DNA of 64,000 nucleotides, taken from positions 292,542 through 356,541 of the forward strand of contig JAOZOU010000003.1 in assembly GCA_029933125.1 (NCBI GenBank). Reading direction: 5' to 3'. The notes beneath the pieces are model-generated. The model was not told where the DNA came from and did no database searches. It saw only the letters and a program-made list of their open reading frames with translations. Position 1 is the stretch's first letter, and each line of letters opens with the position of its first letter. This stretch comes from a bacterium (GTDB lineage: Bacteria > Arandabacterota > Arandabacteria > Arandabacterales > Arandabacteraceae). Positions 3,355-36,368 of this stretch are shown here, piece by piece. The position numbers and the translations under genes were made by a program.

Positions 3355-5925
3355 TTAGGATTTTCTCGGATTATGTCCGAGATGGCTAGGAACGAGGGCT
3401 TCAAGACGGATTACCAAAGCTGTGAGATCATCCTGAGGCTTGCCCATCGTATGACGCATTACTGCTGCATGAATATTGGCAAGAATGGTTTCGGGTTTGA
3501 GTTCATAGGCTTGCTTGAGCTCCTGAATCAATCTTCCTTCACCGAACGGCTGATCATAGGTGTTGAGTTCTTCAGTTATGCCGTCGGTGTAGAGGAAGAG
3601 AAGATCTCCTTCTCGAAGTTCAACATCTGTGTCACGATAGGTTGCCTCGCCATCGACACCAAGGACGATATCTGTCTCATCAAGCACCTTAACCGCCTTG
3701 TCCTTGCTAAGAATGAGGGGTGGAACGTGGCCAGCATTGCAATACGTGAGTTTTGCTCTTTCGAGATCGATGAGTCCGTAGAAGAGTGTAACAAAGGTTG
3801 CTCCATCGGTATGCTCGAAAATCGTCCTGTTGAGGTGTGAGACAACATCACAAGGGCTACGCATTGCATCTGCTTCGGCTCTGAGGGCTGATTGAAGGGA
3901 GGCCATGAGCAATGCCGCAGGAACACCCTTGCCTGAGACATCAGCAATGACAGCGCATATCCTCGTCGGGCTAAGAACGATTATATCATAATAATCCCCG
4001 CCTATGTGCTTGCTCGGGAAATTCATGGCTGCTGTCTCAATGCCATGTACCTTGGGAAATGCCCTTGGCATGAAACGTCTCTGGATTTCCTTTGCAACCA
4101 TGAGCTCGTTGTCGATCTTTTGTTTCTCTATTGCCTCCACATAAAGACGTGTGTTTTCTATTGCCACCGATACCTGATCACTCAAAGTTTCGAGGAGCTC
4201 AATCTCCGTTCCTCCATAGAATTCTTCGTCAGCCTTGCCTCCGACTGTCATGAAGCCAAGTAATCTTGACTTAAAGATGAAGGGAACGATCAGAGCCGTG
4301 TTGCTTTCCATCAAGCATGCAAGTTGAGTGGTGGGGACGGGCAGGGGGCGCCTGGAAGCAATGTGCCTCTCAATGTTGAAGATTCCCTTGGTACTCTTGA
4401 GATACCTAACCAGCGGGGAGTCATCCGCGAAGGATTTAAGCATCTCATGCTTCATCCTCACGGCATATGTTGCGGCATAGACACCAAGCCGTTCATCGTG
4501 AAGATACATTGCAACCGAGGTGGCATCTATTGCCTCGGCTACCCTTATGCAGATATAACTTACGAGGCCTTCAAGGTTCACCATCCCAACGAGTGAGTGG
4601 CTGATTTGTTTGACAAGTTTGCGGTAATTGTACTCATCTCTGAAGAATGTCTTGTCCACGGCGAGTCTTATTCGTGATCTCAGGGGTGAGATCAGCAAAG
4701 TTATCACAAAGATAGAGATGACTGAGAAGAGAAGATCAGCGCTTCCAATGAAGCTTGATGCAAGGCGTCCTATGCCATAGACGACGATGAAGTATATTGA
4801 GGCGAGGACAGCAACCAGCAGGGTATAGATAATGCTACGCCTGAAGACAACTTCCAGATCTAGCAGACCATAGCGCACAATGGCGTGGCCGAAAGCAAGG
4901 GGAACGAGAATGAGGGGGAGGAAGATGAACTTCTCACCTGGTATCTCCAGGCTCGGTCTAATGTTCAATATGATCTGAGTTACCAGAAGGGGGGTTACAC
5001 CTGCAAGTGTACCCCAGAACACTCCCTTAAGCTTCTGCTTGAACTTGTGATTCTCAACACGGCGGTAGCCTCGCACAAAAGCCACAAGCCCTGCACCCAA
5101 TGCAAGCGCAAAGTAGGTGGCAGTTGTCACTTGAATTCCTGAGAGACTCTGAGGAGCTATTCTTATGCCTCTATACATTCCGATTGTGAGTAAGGTTGAT
5201 GCACCGAAGAGAATTGCAGATGGAGCATAGATAAGAGGCTCAAGGGGGGGAAACCTCTCGAGCATCCTGCTTCTCAAAGGAAATAGGAGAAAGAAATGAA
5301 GAAAAAGAGCAGGAAGCATGAGTTGTAAGAGATCACTTAGAATCGAACGCAGGAGGGAGTGAGCAGGAGTAAGCTGGAAACTTGCAGCATTTGTAAGCAC
5401 GAGTCCAAACGACAGACAAAGGAGATAGAAAACAAGTGCGAGCTTATCAGAGCGTCTGAAGTAAACCACCAATCCAATGGCTACAAACGATAGTCCGACT
5501 ATGACCATCGAAATCTTGCGAATGAGTTCAGCCTGCGGTAAGCGCTCAAGCCTGACATCAAAGAGAAGAGGCTTGCCATCACGCAAGACCCCGAATGTCG
5601 TCATTTCTCCAGGACGGAGCCTTGCAAGGCAATCCGAAATCGATGCAACATTGGCACAGCTCACCCCATTTATGCTTACAATAGTATCTCCTTTTCGTAG
5701 TCCAGCTTTGGATACGGGGCTCAAGCTGGCAACTCTTACGATTTTGTTGCCCTTAAGTATCGCACCGCTGTATGGTTGCTCCACAATATTCATTGCAACC
5801 ACAAAGGCAAACACGATAGCTGCGGCTGTTACTGCAACAGCGAGCGCTCTGATGAGAGAATGGCGACGATAAGACGTCTCAGGGTAGGCGCTCCAGCCCT
5901 GCCCGCCACAAGGTCTGTCCTGCAT
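3355..5925 (-). CDS. PDZ / multi-pass membrane / GAF / PP2C (SpoIIE-type) serine phosphatase
   Basis: The ATG at 5925 follows GCGGAGGC eight bases upstream. Residues 25-45 are a membrane segment, and about 55-125 are a PDZ domain (VSKAGLRKGDTIVSINGV). Residues about 135-415 hold at least seven further membrane segments, 445-595 a GAF domain, and 610-840 a PP2C/SpoIIE phosphatase. Metal-binding acids are present: GGDYYD (642-647), ADVSGKG (661-667), YTDG (779-782) and QDDLT (831-835). RsbU-like enzymes dephosphorylate anti-sigma antagonists, so this is probably the sensor of a partner-switching pathway; the PDZ domain suggests sensing of envelope proteins. No STAS or anti-sigma partner is adjacent. 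It is transcribed alone from the promoter at 5980-6007. Confidence 0.88.
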   Translation of the reverse strand: MQDRPCGGQGWSAYPETSYRRHSLIRALAVAVTAAAIVFAFVVAMNIVEQPYSGAILKGNKIVRVASLSPVSKAGLRKGDTIVSINGVSCANVASISDCLARLRPGEMTTFGVLRDGKPLLFDVRLERLPQAELIRKISMVIVGLSFVAIGLVVYFRRSDKLALVFYLLCLSFGLVLTNAASFQLTPAHSLLRSILSDLLQLMLPALFLHFFLLFPLRSRMLERFPPLEPLIYAPSAILFGASTLLTIGMYRGIRIAPQSLSGIQVTTATYFALALGAGLVAFVRGYRRVENHKFKQKLKGVFWGTLAGVTPLLVTQIILNIRPSLEIPGEKFIFLPLILVPLAFGHAIVRYGLLDLEVVFRRSIIYTLLVAVLASIYFIVVYGIGRLASSFIGSADLLFSVISIFVITLLISPLRSRIRLAVDKTFFRDEYNYRKLVKQISHSLVGMVNLEGLVSYICIRVAEAIDATSVAMYLHDERLGVYAATYAVRMKHEMLKSFADDSPLVRYLKSTKGIFNIERHIASRRPLPVPTTQLACLMESNTALIVPFIFKSRLLGFMTVGGKADEEFYGGTEIELLETLSDQVSVAIENTRLYVEAIEKQKIDNELMVAKEIQRRFMPRAFPKVHGIETAAMNFPSKHIGGDYYDIIVLSPTRICAVIADVSGKGVPAALLMASLQSALRAEADAMRSPCDVVSHLNRTIFEHTDGATFVTLFYGLIDLERAKLTYCNAGHVPPLILSKDKAVKVLDETDIVLGVDGEATYRDTDVELREGDLLFLYTDGITEELNTYDQPFGEGRLIQELKQAYELKPETILANIHAAVMRHTMGKPQDDLTALVIRLEALVPSHLGHNPRKS

Positions 5926-5979
5926 GGGCGAGCCTCCGCTGTGGTTACCCCTGGGCAGGGCAAACGGACTTTGAACAAA

Positions 5980-6007
5980 AGTCTATGATGCCTGCAAGGA
6001 GTGTCAA
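5980..6007 (-). promoter_or_regulatory. Sigma-70-like promoter of the PP2C gene
   Basis: On the minus strand TTGACA (6007-6002) and TAGACT (5985-5980) are 16 bases apart, giving a leader of about 45-50 bases before the ATG at 5925. It lies in the divergent gap shared with the TPR gene. Confidence 0.5.
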
Positions 6008-6080
6008 GCTTTTTTGGCTCAAAATCTACTTGCATAAGGGACTCCGTTCTGATAGGTTTACACCCAATGGAGGTGAGAAC

Positions 6081-6770
6081 TTGGCGAGAGGCAAGAAACG
6101 GCTGACCCGGCGCGATATCAAAGAGGACGAGCTAGGTGAGTTCTTTGTAGACGCATGGAAATATGTGCATGAGCACTCAAGACAGGTTGCCGGCATTGTT
6201 GCCTTTGCTCTAATTGCTGCTATCATCGTGAGTTTTGCAATTCGTGAAAGGCGTGCAGCACAGGAGAATGCTCAGGTTCTGCTTGCTCAGGGTAATGCTC
6301 AGCTTGCTCAGGGTAATTTTAGGGCAGCCCTTGACATGTATGGCAATGTGATTGACAAGTTCAGAGGAACTCAGGGTCACTCGGATGCAATTTTCTTTGC
6401 AGCCAATGCTCACTTTCTATCCGGTAACTATGACAGCGCTCTTGTTTTCTTCCAAAGATATCTCAATATAAAGAAGCGCCGAGAGGAGTTCACAATATCG
6501 GCTGAAGAGGGTATTGCTCAATGCCTTGAGGAGATTGGTAGGTACAAAGAAGCTGCTGACGCCTACCTTAAGGTTCAAAGAGAGCACCCTGACAGCGAGC
6601 TTGCTCCTGATGCCCTTATGGGCGCCGGGCGGTGCTATGAACTTGCTGGTGACTTCAAGCAGGCAGAGAAGGTTTATAAGGAATTACTTGATCTTTATCC
6701 AGATTCCAATGAGGCTACTGCGGTAAAGATGCCATTGCTTGAGCTGCAGGCTAGACTCGAGAATTCCTGA
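6081..6770 (+). CDS. Membrane-anchored tetratricopeptide repeat protein
   Basis: The TTG at 6081 is taken as start because AATGGAGGTGAGAAC precedes it; earlier in-frame codons have no ribosome binding site. A basic N-terminus is followed by one membrane segment (about residues 35-55, QVAGIVAFALIAAIIVSFAI) and then TPR motifs to the end, including a BamD/YbgF-like ending with repeats around YKEAADAYLKVQREHPDS and FKQAEKVYKELLDLYPDS. The layout (one N-terminal helix plus a periplasmic TPR) resembles YfgM/CpoB-type helpers of envelope assembly. A seven-residue duplication (LAQGNAQ, then LAQGNF) opens the TPR part. Its TGA overlaps the ATG of the GH57 gene by one base, so the two are coupled. Confidence 0.8.
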   Translation: MARGKKRLTRRDIKEDELGEFFVDAWKYVHEHSRQVAGIVAFALIAAIIVSFAIRERRAAQENAQVLLAQGNAQLAQGNFRAALDMYGNVIDKFRGTQGHSDAIFFAANAHFLSGNYDSALVFFQRYLNIKKRREEFTISAEEGIAQCLEEIGRYKEAADAYLKVQREHPDSELAPDALMGAGRCYELAGDFKQAEKVYKELLDLYPDSNEATAVKMPLLELQARLENS

Positions 6771-8959
6771 TGGCGATCCCCCCACTTCGAATTGCATTCC
6801 TTTGGCACATGCATCAGCCCGACTATCGGAATCCCCGTACCGGCATCTACAGACTTCCCTGGGTGAGGTTGCATGGATCTAAGGATTACTATGATATGGC
6901 AGCGAGGTTGGATTTCTTTCCCAGAGTAAAGGTCAATTTCAACCTTGTTCCATGTCTTGTTGAGCAGATTCGTGATTATGCTCAAGGTAAGGCAATTGAT
7001 AAACATCTCGAGCTCTCGCGAAAGAGCGTTTCCGAGCTTACCCAGGATGATAAGATGTGGCTAATACAGCACTTCTTTCTGGGCAACTGGGCAACAATGA
7101 TCGAGCCCTATCCAAGGTTTCAGTCATTGTTTGAGAAGTGCTCCGATCTTGAGGCAGACTACAAGATTGAAACAACTTTGAGGAGATTTAAGGATCAGGA
7201 TTTCATTGATCTTCAGGTCTGGAGCAATCTAACCTGGATGGGTCCGATCGTCTCAAGAGATCCCATGATCGCCGAACTTCATGCCCGCCAAAGAAATTTC
7301 ACGGAAGAGATGAAAGCAGAACTTCTTGACAGACAACTTGCTATAGTTGCCTCAATCATCCCCACATACAAGAAGCTGAGCGATACGGGGAGGATAGAGA
7401 TTTCAACGTCACCATATTTCCATCCTATTCTTCCGCTGCTTTGTGATTCGGATGTGGCAAAGGTCGCTTGTCCAGACATAAGCTTACCAACCCATGCCAT
7501 CAGATTCAGAGATGATGCAATTGCTCAGATAACCAAAGCCAAGGAGTTCCATACCCAGGTTTTTGGGTCCGTTCCGGCTGGCCTTTGGCCCCCTGAGGCA
7601 GCGGTAAGCAATGATGTTATGCAATTGGCTAGCGAATGCGGATGCAAGTGGCTTGCGACGGATGAAGCCATTCTGGCTGCTACCCTCGGTGAGCAGGTTC
7701 GCGATGAGGATGGGAATGTAGTACGCCCCGATCTGCTTTATCAACCTCATAGTTATGAGAGCGGTGGGAGGGAGGTGGCTGTGCTTTTCAGAGATCGGTT
7801 TCTCTCAGATCTCATAAGTTTTGAATATCCTGGCTGGCCAAGCCGTGATGCGGTCGATGACTTCATGGCTCGTCTTGAGAAAATCCGTAAAGACCTCGGT
7901 AATGAGGCAGCTAAGTCACTTGTTCTCATAGCGCTCGATGGTGAAAACTGCTGGGAATTCTATGATAAGGGCGGCGATCTGTTCCTCGAGGAACTTTACA
8001 CTGCCCTTAGTAAGTCACAAACGATTGAGACTGTAAGAATATCAGACTTTCTCGTTGATACTCCACCAAGGCCAAAACTCAGGCACATTTATCCAGCATC
8101 ATGGATATCGACAAATCTGAGGACGTGGATAGGACAGCGCACGCATAATCTTGCCTGGGATATGCTCTATGATGCCAGAAGTGCACTCAAAGATGCATCG
8201 GAGAAACTTAGTGCCGATGCTGCCACTTCAGCCTGGCGAAGTATCCATGCCGCTGAGGGTAGTGATTGGTTCTGGTGGTACGGGGAAAGCCATATAAGCA
8301 GGGAGGATCCAGAGTTTGATGCTCTTTTTCGATCTCACATTCGGTATGTCTTCGAATCTATAGGTTCACATGTACCTCACAAGGTGCTCCAGCCGATAAT
8401 GACAGCCAGACGCAGTATCGCAATAACTCTTGAACCAGCTGCTGCCCTTGAGCCCGAGCTCGATGGTCGCGTAACCACTTTCTACGAGTGGAAGCTGGCT
8501 GGTCTCTACGAAAGCTACCGCGATGGGACGAAAGGGCTTGCATCAACAAGCACCATCGATGCCATCTACTTTGGCAACGACCGGGCCAATGTCTATCTGC
8601 GCATTGACACAACAGTCTCCCCATGTTCAAGGGAATTCACGCACCTCGCCCTTAACATAGAATTTGAGGAGCCTATCCATAAGGTGATAAAGCTTCGAGC
8701 ACAAAAGCCTTGCACGCCAGCTGATCCTAAGCTCGAGGTTACCTCAAAGGAGCCAACTGAGGCAGAGGCGGTAGCTCTCGAGGTCATCGAGATGAGAATT
8801 CCTCTGGTAGATCTCAAGGCGGGTCCAGACACCCTCGTAGCCTTGCGCATATCCGTTGAGAAGCAGGGCAAGGTGATCGAGCGTCGTCCAATCGATGATC
8901 TCATTACGTTCTCGATTCCTGGCCCAGAGCAAGAGGCTGAAACCTGGAGCACGCTCTAA
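6770..8959 (+). CDS. Glycoside hydrolase family 57 (alpha-glucan-acting enzyme)
   Basis: The N-terminus holds the GH57 signature WHMHQPDY (about residues 12-19). Further family blocks are GLWPPEAAVS (about 263-272), whose glutamate fits the nucleophile region, and ALDGENCWEFYDKGG (about 385-399), whose aspartate fits the acid/base. A conserved SDWFWWYGE stretch lies near 500, and the last 170 residues are a beta-rich accessory domain. GH57 enzymes act on alpha-glucans as amylases, 4-alpha-glucanotransferases or branching enzymes; which activity applies cannot be read from the sequence. No signal peptide is present, so it is probably cytoplasmic and works on glycogen-like storage glucan. Confidence 0.88.
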   Translation: MAIPPLRIAFLWHMHQPDYRNPRTGIYRLPWVRLHGSKDYYDMAARLDFFPRVKVNFNLVPCLVEQIRDYAQGKAIDKHLELSRKSVSELTQDDKMWLIQHFFLGNWATMIEPYPRFQSLFEKCSDLEADYKIETTLRRFKDQDFIDLQVWSNLTWMGPIVSRDPMIAELHARQRNFTEEMKAELLDRQLAIVASIIPTYKKLSDTGRIEISTSPYFHPILPLLCDSDVAKVACPDISLPTHAIRFRDDAIAQITKAKEFHTQVFGSVPAGLWPPEAAVSNDVMQLASECGCKWLATDEAILAATLGEQVRDEDGNVVRPDLLYQPHSYESGGREVAVLFRDRFLSDLISFEYPGWPSRDAVDDFMARLEKIRKDLGNEAAKSLVLIALDGENCWEFYDKGGDLFLEELYTALSKSQTIETVRISDFLVDTPPRPKLRHIYPASWISTNLRTWIGQRTHNLAWDMLYDARSALKDASEKLSADAATSAWRSIHAAEGSDWFWWYGESHISREDPEFDALFRSHIRYVFESIGSHVPHKVLQPIMTARRSIAITLEPAAALEPELDGRVTTFYEWKLAGLYESYRDGTKGLASTSTIDAIYFGNDRANVYLRIDTTVSPCSREFTHLALNIEFEEPIHKVIKLRAQKPCTPADPKLEVTSKEPTEAEAVALEVIEMRIPLVDLKAGPDTLVALRISVEKQGKVIERRPIDDLITFSIPGPEQEAETWSTL

Positions 8960-32102: not shown

Positions 32103-32132
32103 TTGATCGAAAGGCGACAAATGTGATAAACT
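32103..32132 (+). promoter_or_regulatory. Putative promoter of the sigma-factor/CHAT operon
   Basis: TTGATC (32103-32108) and TAAACT (32127-32132) lie 18 bases apart, with transcription expected near 32139, just before the AAGGAG site at 32156-32161. An ECF-type autoregulated promoter cannot be excluded. Confidence 0.4.
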
Positions 32133-32169
32133 ACGAAGGCGGGTTTGTAGACGACAAGGAGCGTTAGCA

Positions 32170-32781
32170 CTGCGAAATCCTCGGGACACAAAGACGCCGT
32201 CTGACGCAAGCCTGGCAGAGCTTTACCTCTCAGGGAACCAAGAAGCCATCAGATTGATTGGAAGCTGGATGCACAGGGTTGTAAATCTCAAATTCTACAA
32301 TCTCTCGCATGAGGCAAGTGATATAGTGCAGGAAGTGCACTTTAGGTTATTCCACAATCTCAAGTCCAAGCGGTTTGAGGGTCGATCGAGCCTCAAGTGG
32401 TATGTTCAGCGCATGACTATGAAGGTCTGCTGCGACATCCTAAGAAAAACACGTCCAGTTATTGCCCTCGGTAATCTTGATGACCCTCCGCAACTTCAAG
32501 CATCTGGCAGTGATCCGCTTGATGACGTAGTTTCGAATGAAAAAGCAGAAGCCTACGCGTGGATTCTTAAGAATCTTTCGGACCGAAGCCGTCAGGTTAT
32601 TCTTTTGCGGCTGAGAGGCCTTAAATACACTACAATTGCCCATATATTTGGTGTTCCTGAGGGGACTGTTAAATCCCGACTCTCAAGAGCAATTGATGAA
32701 GCTCAGGAGTTGCTTGAGAAATGGAAAATGAGGGAACGATCTCCTTGTTCTAGCGACACTAATAAGGGGACGCCGGGATAG
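32170..32781 (+). CDS. ECF-like RNA polymerase sigma factor
   Basis: Homology begins upstream of the first conventional start (TTG 32254): SLAELYLSGNQEAIRLIGSW is typical of region 2 of this group, so the start must lie earlier. The best candidate is a CTG at 32170, eight bases behind AAGGAG; no ATG, GTG or TTG is in frame there. Region 2 includes SDIVQEVHFRLF. Region 4 is a helix-turn-helix (YTTIAHIFGVPEGTVKSRLSRA). The 203-residue size suits an ECF or small group-specific factor. Eleven bases separate it from the anti-sigma/CHAT gene, its probable regulator. Confidence 0.85.
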   Translation: MRNPRDTKTPSDASLAELYLSGNQEAIRLIGSWMHRVVNLKFYNLSHEASDIVQEVHFRLFHNLKSKRFEGRSSLKWYVQRMTMKVCCDILRKTRPVIALGNLDDPPQLQASGSDPLDDVVSNEKAEAYAWILKNLSDRSRQVILLRLRGLKYTTIAHIFGVPEGTVKSRLSRAIDEAQELLEKWKMRERSPCSSDTNKGTPG

Positions 32782-32792
32782 GGGGTGACCGT

Positions 32793-35700
32793 GTGACTTC
32801 ACGGCATGAGTGCGAAAAGGTCAGGCATTTGCTTGATGCTTTTGTCGTCGAAGATCTCGCCCAAGATCAATGTGAAATTGTGCAAACACATCTCAAGCAT
32901 TGCGAGGCCTGCTCCAGGCGTGTCTTCTTGTTGCGAGGACTTGCTTCGGCCATTCACGAACTGGACAGAAAAGATGAGGCACAACACATTGCGAGTGATC
33001 TGATTGTTGATATAGCTCTTGAACCTGCCTCCGTCCCGCCTGCTAAGAGAAGTCAAGCTCTTGAGCACATAGCCACTTGTACGAGGTGCAGGGATGAGTA
33101 CAGACTGGCTCAGAAGGCAGGGCATGAGCTAGGGCTTATTTGCCCGGGTGAAACCCCCTCCACCTGGTTTGAGAAATTCCATAATGCTGTTGAGAAGATT
33201 CTCGGGCGTGGGCCTATCCCAGTGGTAACAGCTGGTCTTGCTGCTCTCGCCCTCTTGCTTCTTTTCCTGCTTTCTGGCCACGAAGGCATGAAGACGCGAG
33301 GGCTTCCTCACCCGGTCACGGTTGCCCCACATGGCAAAACTGCTACAGCCGAATACAAGGTGCACCATCTGGGTGATTGGTTTGTTCTCCTTAAGCAGTC
33401 GGAAAGAGAGGCTAAGGCAGGTGACACGACCTTTGCTCGTGTCCTTCTGGATTCAGCGTGGATTCTGGCTTTTAGAGATTTCGGTGCTCCCGAGTCTTCG
33501 CTTTCATTGCCTCTTCTGTATCGGTGGCCGCTTCAGTTCATCGATCCCAGCGATTATGGACGAGCTGAATCCTTGTTCGTCTATACTGTTCGTATAAGAT
33601 CGGCCCTGCTGGGTAGTGATAGTCCTCAACTTGCTATCCACTGGGAAGTCCTTGGGAGACTCTACGACTTACAATTGAGACACCGCGAAAGTGTGGAATT
33701 CTACAAACGTGCGGTTGCCTTAAGCGAAAAAGCTCCATTGGATTCAGCTCGCATTGCCTTTGTTCGCAGACTCGCAGGTTGTTTGCACCATCTTGGGCGC
33801 TATAGCGAATCTCAAGAAGTTCTCCTTACCGCAGCTGCTCTTTCCGAGAAATTCTATCGAAGACATATCACTGAATCCGCTTCGGCAGCCTATATACTTG
33901 CCATGGTGTATGACAATCTTGGACATAATTCCTTTGATTTGGGAAGATACGGTGAGGCTGAAGGCTACTACCATGAAGCACTTGAGATAAGAAAACGCGC
34001 CAAGGAGTTGGTACCACCTCAGGACTTGGGTGCATCCATAAGCTATTTCGGGCGCATCTATAATGCCCTCGGTAGATATGACAAGGCAGCCTCTTGCTTT
34101 AGGCAGGCAATCGAACTCAGGAGGAAGGGCCTTGGCGACTGTCATCCTGATGTTGCTTCGAGTCAGATTAATCTTGCCTGGGTTTATGAGGCACAGGGTA
34201 ATTACGCCAAGGCAGAATCACTTTTCAAGGCAGTTCTCGATACGCGTCTAAAGACCCTTGCTCCAGTTACCCCAGGCGGAGCGCATCCAGGAATCGCCTC
34301 TAGCTATAGCTCACTTGCAGCCATCTACACTGAGGAAGGTAGATACTCCGAAGCTGAACCCCTTTACAGGAAGGCGATAGAGATATGGCGCAAAGCATAC
34401 GGTGGTGAACATCCTCGCAGTGTCTTCACACTTCATGATCTCGCGTATAATTATGAAAAGAGTGGGCGCTACGGGCTTGCTGAATCGACCTATGCCTGTG
34501 CTAGGGATGTTGCTGAGCGGACGCTTGGGGAAGATCATCCTGATCTGGCTATGGTGCTTGAATCCATGTCAAGACTTCTAGGACTTGAGCGCCGCTATGG
34601 TGAAGCTGCAGGCCTTGCAAAGCGAGCCTTGGCAATCCAATATGCCAACTTCATAACCAATGCTGAGGTGCTTTCTGAAATGGATGCACTGAGCTATTTT
34701 GGCATGCTAGCTCACTCGCTCGATAGCTACCTTTCGTGTCTTGCTGATGCATCATTGCTTGAGGATGGTGATTGGGAGCTTGGGGGTATCATTTTGTCCT
34801 CTAAGGGTACTATTCTTGGCGAGCTCTTTGAACGCCAGCGGATGGTCTTCGAGAATGCTGACTCAACCACCAAGAGCATAGCTGCCACATTACGGGATGT
34901 GCGCTTTCAACTTTCAGAGCTCCGAATGATGGGGCCTGGTCATGACGTCTCAAAGTATCAAGTAGGTGTGGACTCCCTCGAGCACCTTGCAGAGAATCTC
35001 GAATCCATGCTTGCGAGGCATAGTGCATCCTTCAGGCAGAGGCAAAGTGAGAGGCAGAAGACGTGGGAGGATATGGCGCGTGATGTCGTTGCCAACCTTC
35101 CTCGAGATGCGGCTCTTGTCGAATACGAAAGGTGGAATTACATTGATCCGCAAACAGAAAGGTTAACTCCGAGATATCTGGCAATGGTCTTGCGGAAGGA
35201 TGCATCTCCAGAGTTCGTTGCGCTTGGTGATGCTAAACCAATTGATGATGTTGTGGCAACCTATCAAGCTCACATGGAGCGAATAGCTAAGTCGGGAAGG
35301 GGTGTCGGGATTGGTGATGAGATTGAATACGAAGAAATTGCCTCAAGGCTATATAACCTGATCTGGCTTCCTATTGAAAATCTCATTCCTGAGGGAGATC
35401 TGACTTTTATTGTGCCCGATGGAGCTCTCAACCTCGTCTCCTTCGTAACGCTGAAACGGCCTGATGGTAAGTACCTCATAGAAAGCAGGCGCATCCATTA
35501 CCTGACAACGGGTCGTGATGTTGCAAGGCTCAGGAGGGAAGATGGACGAAACCACGGTTTGCTTGTGATGGCTGATCCAGCATGGAAGCCTTCGCAGGGA
35601 ATTGCTGAGGAAGAAGGTGGCCGGGAGGTTGAGGTTCCACTAGTCGCTAGCCTCACGTTGAGGGGACCCTTGCTGCCGGAGGAATACCTCAAGGGAATCC

Positions 35701-36368
35701 AGTTTGAGCCGCTTCCTTGGGCAAGGAAGGAAACCGAGCTTATTGTATCTCAATGGCGCACGGTAAGTGATGAGCCTGTGAGAGCCTACTTGGGAGAGCA
35801 AGCCACCGAGCAACGCTTTAGGGTAGAAGCTCCTCGATCAAGGATCATCCATCTTGCTACTCATGGCTTCTTCCTTGAAGAGTCCTCACGCCGAAGCTCT
35901 CAGGGCCTCATGACATTTCGCGAGCGAACCCTACCCCATATCAACCCCCTCCTACTTTCAGGTCTTTTGCTGGCTGAGTCTCAAGAGGACACCACGGGTT
36001 CCTCGGCTGGTGAGGATGGTGTTCTCACAGCCTTGGAAGTTAGCACAATGGACCTTTCCGGAGTTGACCTGGTAGTACTTTCCGCTTGCGAGACTGGTCT
36101 TGGAACGGTCGCCCAAGGTGAGGGAATCTATGGTTTGCGCCGTGCCTTCGAAGAGGCTGGAGTACGTACGATAGTGAGTGCACTTTGGGCTGTCCCCGAT
36201 GAACCCACGGCAAGGATAATGAGCCACATGTATCTGAGGGGGGATGAAACCGTCGTTGACAGGCTGCGCAATGCTCAGCTTGAGATGATTGCAGACCTCC
36301 GCAAATCCAATCGTCCTGATCACCCATACTTCTGGGGAGGCTTCATAGCAGCAGGGTCCTGGCACTGA
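32793..36368 (+). CDS. Membrane-anchored zinc anti-sigma / TPR / CHAT protease fusion
   Basis: A 1191-residue protein starting at GTG 32793 behind GGGGGTGA. Residues 1-45 are a zinc anti-sigma (zf-HC2) domain: C7, H33-x3-C37-x2-C40. A second H92-x3-C96-x2-C99 unit follows. One membrane helix spans about 142-161. Residues about 250-680 are TPRs of the kinesin-light-chain type. The C-terminal 400 residues are a CHAT domain with catalytic H1024 (HLATHG) and C1099 (LSACETG), so it should be an active caspase-like protease. With the adjacent sigma factor this suggests signal sensing by the TPRs, cleavage of itself or a partner, and sigma release; the mechanism is inferred. The topology places the zinc domains in the cytoplasm and, with a single helix, the TPR-CHAT part outside. 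Confidence 0.93.
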   Translation: MTSRHECEKVRHLLDAFVVEDLAQDQCEIVQTHLKHCEACSRRVFLLRGLASAIHELDRKDEAQHIASDLIVDIALEPASVPPAKRSQALEHIATCTRCRDEYRLAQKAGHELGLICPGETPSTWFEKFHNAVEKILGRGPIPVVTAGLAALALLLLFLLSGHEGMKTRGLPHPVTVAPHGKTATAEYKVHHLGDWFVLLKQSEREAKAGDTTFARVLLDSAWILAFRDFGAPESSLSLPLLYRWPLQFIDPSDYGRAESLFVYTVRIRSALLGSDSPQLAIHWEVLGRLYDLQLRHRESVEFYKRAVALSEKAPLDSARIAFVRRLAGCLHHLGRYSESQEVLLTAAALSEKFYRRHITESASAAYILAMVYDNLGHNSFDLGRYGEAEGYYHEALEIRKRAKELVPPQDLGASISYFGRIYNALGRYDKAASCFRQAIELRRKGLGDCHPDVASSQINLAWVYEAQGNYAKAESLFKAVLDTRLKTLAPVTPGGAHPGIASSYSSLAAIYTEEGRYSEAEPLYRKAIEIWRKAYGGEHPRSVFTLHDLAYNYEKSGRYGLAESTYACARDVAERTLGEDHPDLAMVLESMSRLLGLERRYGEAAGLAKRALAIQYANFITNAEVLSEMDALSYFGMLAHSLDSYLSCLADASLLEDGDWELGGIILSSKGTILGELFERQRMVFENADSTTKSIAATLRDVRFQLSELRMMGPGHDVSKYQVGVDSLEHLAENLESMLARHSASFRQRQSERQKTWEDMARDVVANLPRDAALVEYERWNYIDPQTERLTPRYLAMVLRKDASPEFVALGDAKPIDDVVATYQAHMERIAKSGRGVGIGDEIEYEEIASRLYNLIWLPIENLIPEGDLTFIVPDGALNLVSFVTLKRPDGKYLIESRRIHYLTTGRDVARLRREDGRNHGLLVMADPAWKPSQGIAEEEGGREVEVPLVASLTLRGPLLPEEYLKGIQFEPLPWARKETELIVSQWRTVSDEPVRAYLGEQATEQRFRVEAPRSRIIHLATHGFFLEESSRRSSQGLMTFRERTLPHINPLLLSGLLLAESQEDTTGSSAGEDGVLTALEVSTMDLSGVDLVVLSACETGLGTVAQGEGIYGLRRAFEEAGVRTIVSALWAVPDEPTARIMSHMYLRGDETVVDRLRNAQLEMIADLRKSNRPDHPYFWGGFIAAGSWH

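Follow-up and report, generated by a model that had tools for sequence, protein, structure and literature searches.

A fused membrane anti-sigma/TPR/CHAT protein encoded beside an ECF sigma factor, and the association of CHAT genes with ECF sigma and zinc-finger anti-sigma genes in bacteria

What does a caspase-like CHAT protease do when it is built into the same polypeptide as an anti-sigma factor, and how common is the association behind such a protein? The question arises from two adjacent genes on the plus strand of a 64,000-nucleotide stretch of a bacterial contig (JAOZOU010000003.1), hereafter the window. A previous reading made from the letters of this stretch (the sequence-only reading) had described an ECF-like sigma gene 11 bases before a gene for an anti-sigma/TPR/CHAT fusion, and had suggested a CRISPR-independent, protease-gated transcription switch. 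The gene arrangement agrees with the limits of the reading frames, as the sigma gene (32170..32781) and the fused gene (32793..36368) are separated by exactly 11 bases. The sigma product matches TIGR02937 with 68.7 bits (cut-off 42.9), and we assign it to the ECF factors, which have sigma regions 2 and 4 only, with region 4 (Sigma70_r4_2) above its cut-off and region 2 slightly under (22.3 vs 24). Its nearest relatives in the family are sigma genes adjoining double-zinc-finger anti-sigma genes in the congeneric genome G001 and in genome G002.

The sigma reading frame, open from 32107, stops at 32781 and has two candidate starts. TTG at 32254 is the first common start codon, while CTG at 32170 lies 8 bases past an AAGGAG (32156-32161) and would retain more of the conserved frame. 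A putative sigma-70 promoter, TTGATC-N16-GATAAA with TGT preceding the second hexamer (32103..32130, plus strand), was read directly from the DNA, and the matching place in G001 has TTGACA-N16-GATAAA. A scan for the sigma-70 consensus upstream of the sigma gene returned nothing above threshold and did not report this candidate, and a DNA alignment of the two upstream regions gave nothing informative. In the congener, the -10-like element and the first ATG in frame with the sigma gene overlap, and hence the true sigma start should be further in.

The fused gene begins with GTG and encodes a protein of 1191 amino acids, in which profile matches and a single hydrophobic segment account for each of the parts previously named. 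The N-terminal double zinc-finger anti-sigma domain (32805..33107; C7-H33-C37-C40 and H65-H92-C96-C99) matches Pfam zf-HC2 with 25.8 bits (cut-off 22.2), and the ligands H33, C37, C40, H65, H92, C96 and C99 are invariant across seven related anti-sigma factors. The zinc-finger profile also matches RsiW, ChrR, RsrA and, weakly, the zinc domain of DdvA (8rlz, E 0.35). The domain is followed by one transmembrane helix (about residues 142-162, 33216..33278, hydrophobic segment at about residues 144-160, hydropathy maximum 2.81), which is aligned in three relatives, and by a TPR superhelix (about residues 200-640, 33390..34712; TPR_12, 185 bits), which is predicted to be extracytoplasmic and has fold matches to kinesin light chain, Rap/NprR and Csx29. 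The C-terminal part (residues 767-1191, 35091..36365) comprises a pseudo-caspase and a CHAT caspase-like protease, with residues 848-1189 matching Pfam CHAT at 206 bits. The domain matches of the gene pair are not due to chance.

The predicted catalytic residues, His1024 (codon 35862..35864) and Cys1099 (codon 36087..36089), had been numbered correctly, and both are invariant in 32/32 aligned relatives. CHAT homologues lacking this pair had been named as evidence that would speak against the switch; in our wide sample the His and the Cys are present together in 87/90 CHATs. Tyr replaces the catalytic His in two ECF-linked CHATs (L122 and L139). In the AlphaFold model of the whole fused protein, confidence is mostly good from about residue 194 onward and low in the zinc-finger and membrane part (pLDDT mostly <50). 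We modelled the CHAT region separately with AF2 from 32 sequences (pLDDT 82.6), and obtained a pair of pseudo-caspase and caspase whose best fold match is Csx29 (VIA, Z 29.1, 313 residues, 3.0 A), in line with the kinship proposed earlier. Separase is the second-best fold (Z 25.3), and DdvA matches with Z 19.5 over 274 residues (3.2 A, 16-17% identity in the structural alignment).

The union of anti-sigma, sensor and protease in one polypeptide is real here, but as a layout it is not new, being known from DdvA of Myxococcus xanthus, which is titled transmembrane anti-sigma factor in PDB entries 8rot and 8rw5. Like the window protein, DdvA is a membrane-bound anti-sigma factor that is paired with an ECF sigma (DdvS) and has a zinc-binding domain at its N terminus as well as TPR-CHAT, and the window protein has all elements of this type: the zinc anti-sigma domain, one helix, TPR-CHAT after the helix, and an adjacent ECF gene. 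DdvA reportedly has a single zinc motif and an active site said to be incomplete, and its autoproteolysis is said to have been proposed to take place ahead of RseP. In contrast, the window protein is larger (1191 vs 991 residues), contains two zinc motifs and a CHAT domain with both His and Cys, and has no convincing defence match among the seven neighbouring proteins. DdvS is active once DdvA has been inactivated by an unknown signal (PMC4374960), and an antiphage island carrying CBASS and type III-B CRISPR-Cas is under its control (PMC12288465). The description of the switch as CRISPR-independent is supported at the locus only, given this DdvS island, a regulon that may lie elsewhere and a Cas1 gene in another part of the genome (contig C171). 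Around the gene pair, we found no direct repeats in positions 22000-47000 of the window, and PADLOC gave no convincing defence match for the sigma factor, the fused protein and seven neighbour proteins (matches to EngA, a GTPase, were deemed generic); the surrounding ORFs look like genes for transport and housekeeping functions.

The second known system, Csx29/Csx30/CASP-sigma of type III-E CRISPR, resembles the window pair in combining a TPR-CHAT protease, a sigma inhibitor and an ECF sigma factor. It is cytoplasmic and RNA-guided through Cas7-11, with a separate inhibitor. The window protein shares with it the TPR-CHAT part with a His/Cys dyad, whereas Cas7-11 and a CRISPR array are absent from a locus with such neighbours and no repeats, and the inhibitor domain is not a separate soluble protein like Csx30 but belongs to the membrane-bound chain of the protease. 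Csx29 cleaves the sigma inhibitor Csx30 (PMC10028731). In the ECF54 group, which is listed without an anti-sigma factor, CHAT genes are conserved neighbours and proteolytic control has been proposed (PMC8999054); the window pair resembles this group in these two traits but includes an anti-sigma factor. RseA/DegS/RseP and RsiW are likewise membrane anti-sigma systems freed by stepwise proteolysis, as proposed here, but in those systems the first protease is a separate protein, while in the window the anti-sigma factor itself would contain it. The fused kind (DdvA), the ECF-CHAT neighbourhood (ECF54) and protease-gated sigma release (Csx29) are already known. New are the association of ECF, zinc-finger anti-sigma and TPR-CHAT genes in many bacterial groups and a rule for their compartments, both described below; a search of the open-licence literature found no paper on the three-gene module, the compartment rule, or the CHAT domain combined with zf-HC2.

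We analyzed the linkage in two samples. The first comprised 61 CHAT genes from loci chosen by CHAT score alone, with 173 control ORFs of >=400 codons from 380 kb of other regions in genomes of the same sample. An ECF gene was located within 3 kb of 26/61 CHAT genes and 4/173 control ORFs (Fisher p=7e-14, uncorrected for shared ancestry). At 17 of the 61 CHAT genes a zinc-finger anti-sigma gene was present in addition to the ECF gene, and 12 of these 17 had the order sigma, anti-sigma, CHAT on one strand. The second sample, the best 80 loci of another genome collection, comprised 98 CHAT genes and shared two contigs with the first sample; 17 of these genes were ECF-linked, a count again uncorrected for shared ancestry. 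The linked genes include representatives of Zixiibacteriota, Ignavibacteriae, Calditrichaeota and Acidobacteria; cyanobacterial and magnetococcal CHATs of this sample were not ECF-linked. In the CHAT tree, the window gene belongs to a clade (support 0.99) with many ECF-linked members, several of them from the second sample. Scanning the genome collection with the full fused protein found no relatives, whereas the CHAT profile did retrieve them. Many CHAT genes do not adjoin an ECF gene (53/90 TPR-CHATs lack an adjoining sigma gene), so CHAT has other uses. For instance, genome G004 of the same family has close relatives (L037 and L038) that are exported TPR-CHATs standing alone, without a sigma gene inside 3 kb.

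The genome of the window contains 12 ECF region-4 matches over the cut-off and three CHAT genes, each beside ECF and zinc-finger anti-sigma genes. The second CHAT gene (L004) encodes a TPR-CHAT protein with an N-terminal hydrophobic segment and is divergent from a sigma gene, which is followed by a gene for a double-zinc-finger anti-sigma factor that has a membrane helix. The third, in L005 on contig C42, is followed on one strand by genes for a redoxin-like protein, an ECF sigma factor and a soluble zinc-finger anti-sigma factor, which has no membrane helix; the row lies at 4625-7805. The product of this third CHAT gene is without an N-terminal signal, has a membrane helix near the C terminus, and its CHAT part is predicted to be cytoplasmic; it also carries a PEGA-like tail.

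The sequence-only reading had regarded an extracytoplasmic protease as a difficulty, with a more complex topology as one way out. The split relatives remove this difficulty, and we set the complex topology aside in favor of an exported protease. Signal peptides are present in stand-alone TPR-CHAT relatives, so the protease of the window is expected outside the cytoplasm. In the linked triplets, we set the hydrophobicity of each CHAT protein's N terminus against whether the anti-sigma factor of the triplet had a membrane helix. A crude hydropathy rule, with thresholds of our own choosing, gave 21 exported CHATs with membrane anti-sigma factors and none with soluble ones, and 6 non-exported CHATs with membrane and 5 with soluble anti-sigma factors (p=0.002, uncorrected for ancestry). 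On a manual pass, we left out two loci with contig-edge N termini (L208, L209) and the congener with the TGA codon discussed below (L036), and called signal peptides by eye in L087 and L207. The counts then became 23, 0, 1 and 5 (p=5e-5, uncorrected for ancestry and adjusted after the rule-based result had been seen). Four of the cytosolic cases (L123, L142, L153 and L155) share a similar layout, and the fifth, L005, is different. Exported CHATs go with membrane anti-sigma factors, and cytosolic CHATs go with soluble ones.

With a probability of about 55%, we interpret the gene pair as a DdvS/DdvA-type signalling system in which the CHAT domain starts stepwise proteolysis, based on the catalytic residues, the fold, the linkage, the compartment rule and the cleavage of a sigma inhibitor by Csx29. 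From the observed domains, residues, predicted fold, gene linkage and compartment agreement in split relatives, we infer how sigma binding, cleavage, a second cut, a signal and a regulon would fit together. The N-terminal double zinc finger would hold the ECF sigma factor at the inner face of the membrane, the single helix would cross it, and the outer TPR superhelix would serve both as a sensor and as a regulator of CHAT. A signal at the TPR part would make CHAT active, and the active protease would cut the extracytoplasmic stalk of the anti-sigma factor, in its own chain or in a neighbouring copy. The stub left by this cut would then be cleaved by an intramembrane protease of the RseP type, and the sigma factor would be freed; an RseP-like M50 protease is encoded in the genome. 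The idea of a protease-gated switch is thereby upheld as an interpretation in which cleavage and sigma release are the conjectural steps.

CHAT might instead be a structural or allosteric, pseudo-enzyme-like module, with ligand sensing altering the hold of the zinc finger on sigma across the membrane and no proteolysis involved. The reportedly incomplete active site of DdvA, whose structure is the nearest solved one with this layout, and the two linked CHATs with Tyr for His would fit such a role, but a purely structural module is not expected to retain both His and Cys, as nearly all CHATs of the wide sample and all close relatives do, and we consider this explanation unlikely. The protease might also act on other envelope proteins in defence, death or turnover, with the fused anti-sigma domain only reporting on, or feedback-controlling, its own synthesis. 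This would suit the common TPR-CHATs without an adjoining sigma gene; in split systems, however, anti-sigma factor and protease agree in compartment, and feedback alone needs no such match. We consider this proposal quite unlikely.

The congener, G001, encodes the same sigma factor and the same zinc-finger and membrane part, then has an in-frame TGA (at about 3042 of L036), directly after the membrane helix and before the TPR array, and continues with TPR-CHAT in the same frame up to the contig end. This TGA may represent an error, a recent mutation or read-through, and it may put the stability of the fused form in this genus in question. Its position, together with the absence of another intact fusion among the sampled CHAT genes (61-gene and 98-gene samples), could point to an assembly artefact, or a decaying gene, derived from a normal two-gene operon. 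Against this, the window ORF is open across 1191 codons, and the alignment with G001 (41% identity) crosses the junction in one frame. In G001, neither a signal peptide nor a convincing start follows the TGA, so that a separate exported protein is unlikely there. An artefact or decay seems very improbable. Conservation of the fused order in relatives, a further expectation of the sequence-only reading, was not seen, given the TGA in the congener and separate genes elsewhere: fusions like the window gene are rare, and most relatives encode the parts as separate genes. Three long zinc-finger proteins of other genomes (L089, L090 and L091) were inspected by eye as possible further fusions, and no CHAT was seen in them.

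More tentatively, and at somewhat less than even odds, the ECF sigma/zinc-finger anti-sigma/TPR-CHAT set could be a widespread module with a shared compartment, of which the window pair, DdvA and Csx29/Csx30/CASP-sigma would be derived versions, the RNA-guided complex replacing the original signal in the last. If true, caspase-like CHAT proteases would join the DegS- and PrsW-type site-1 proteases as another large class of proteases acting on anti-sigma factors, and the CRISPR craspase may represent older wiring that was borrowed. Many unassigned CHAT genes would gain a testable function, and the signal peptide alone would predict the compartment of the CHAT target.

A common extracytoplasmic beta domain in the split anti-sigma factors was also considered and rejected, as a profile seeded from L004 and L044 gathered no further members. 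Two other arrangements of CHAT genes were observed. In genome G054 (L041-L043), five large TPR-CHAT genes within about 33 kb are interleaved with genes for proteins with hemolysin-type calcium-binding-like repeats, and genome G214 (L087) carries a tandem pair of complete sigma/anti-sigma/CHAT operons.
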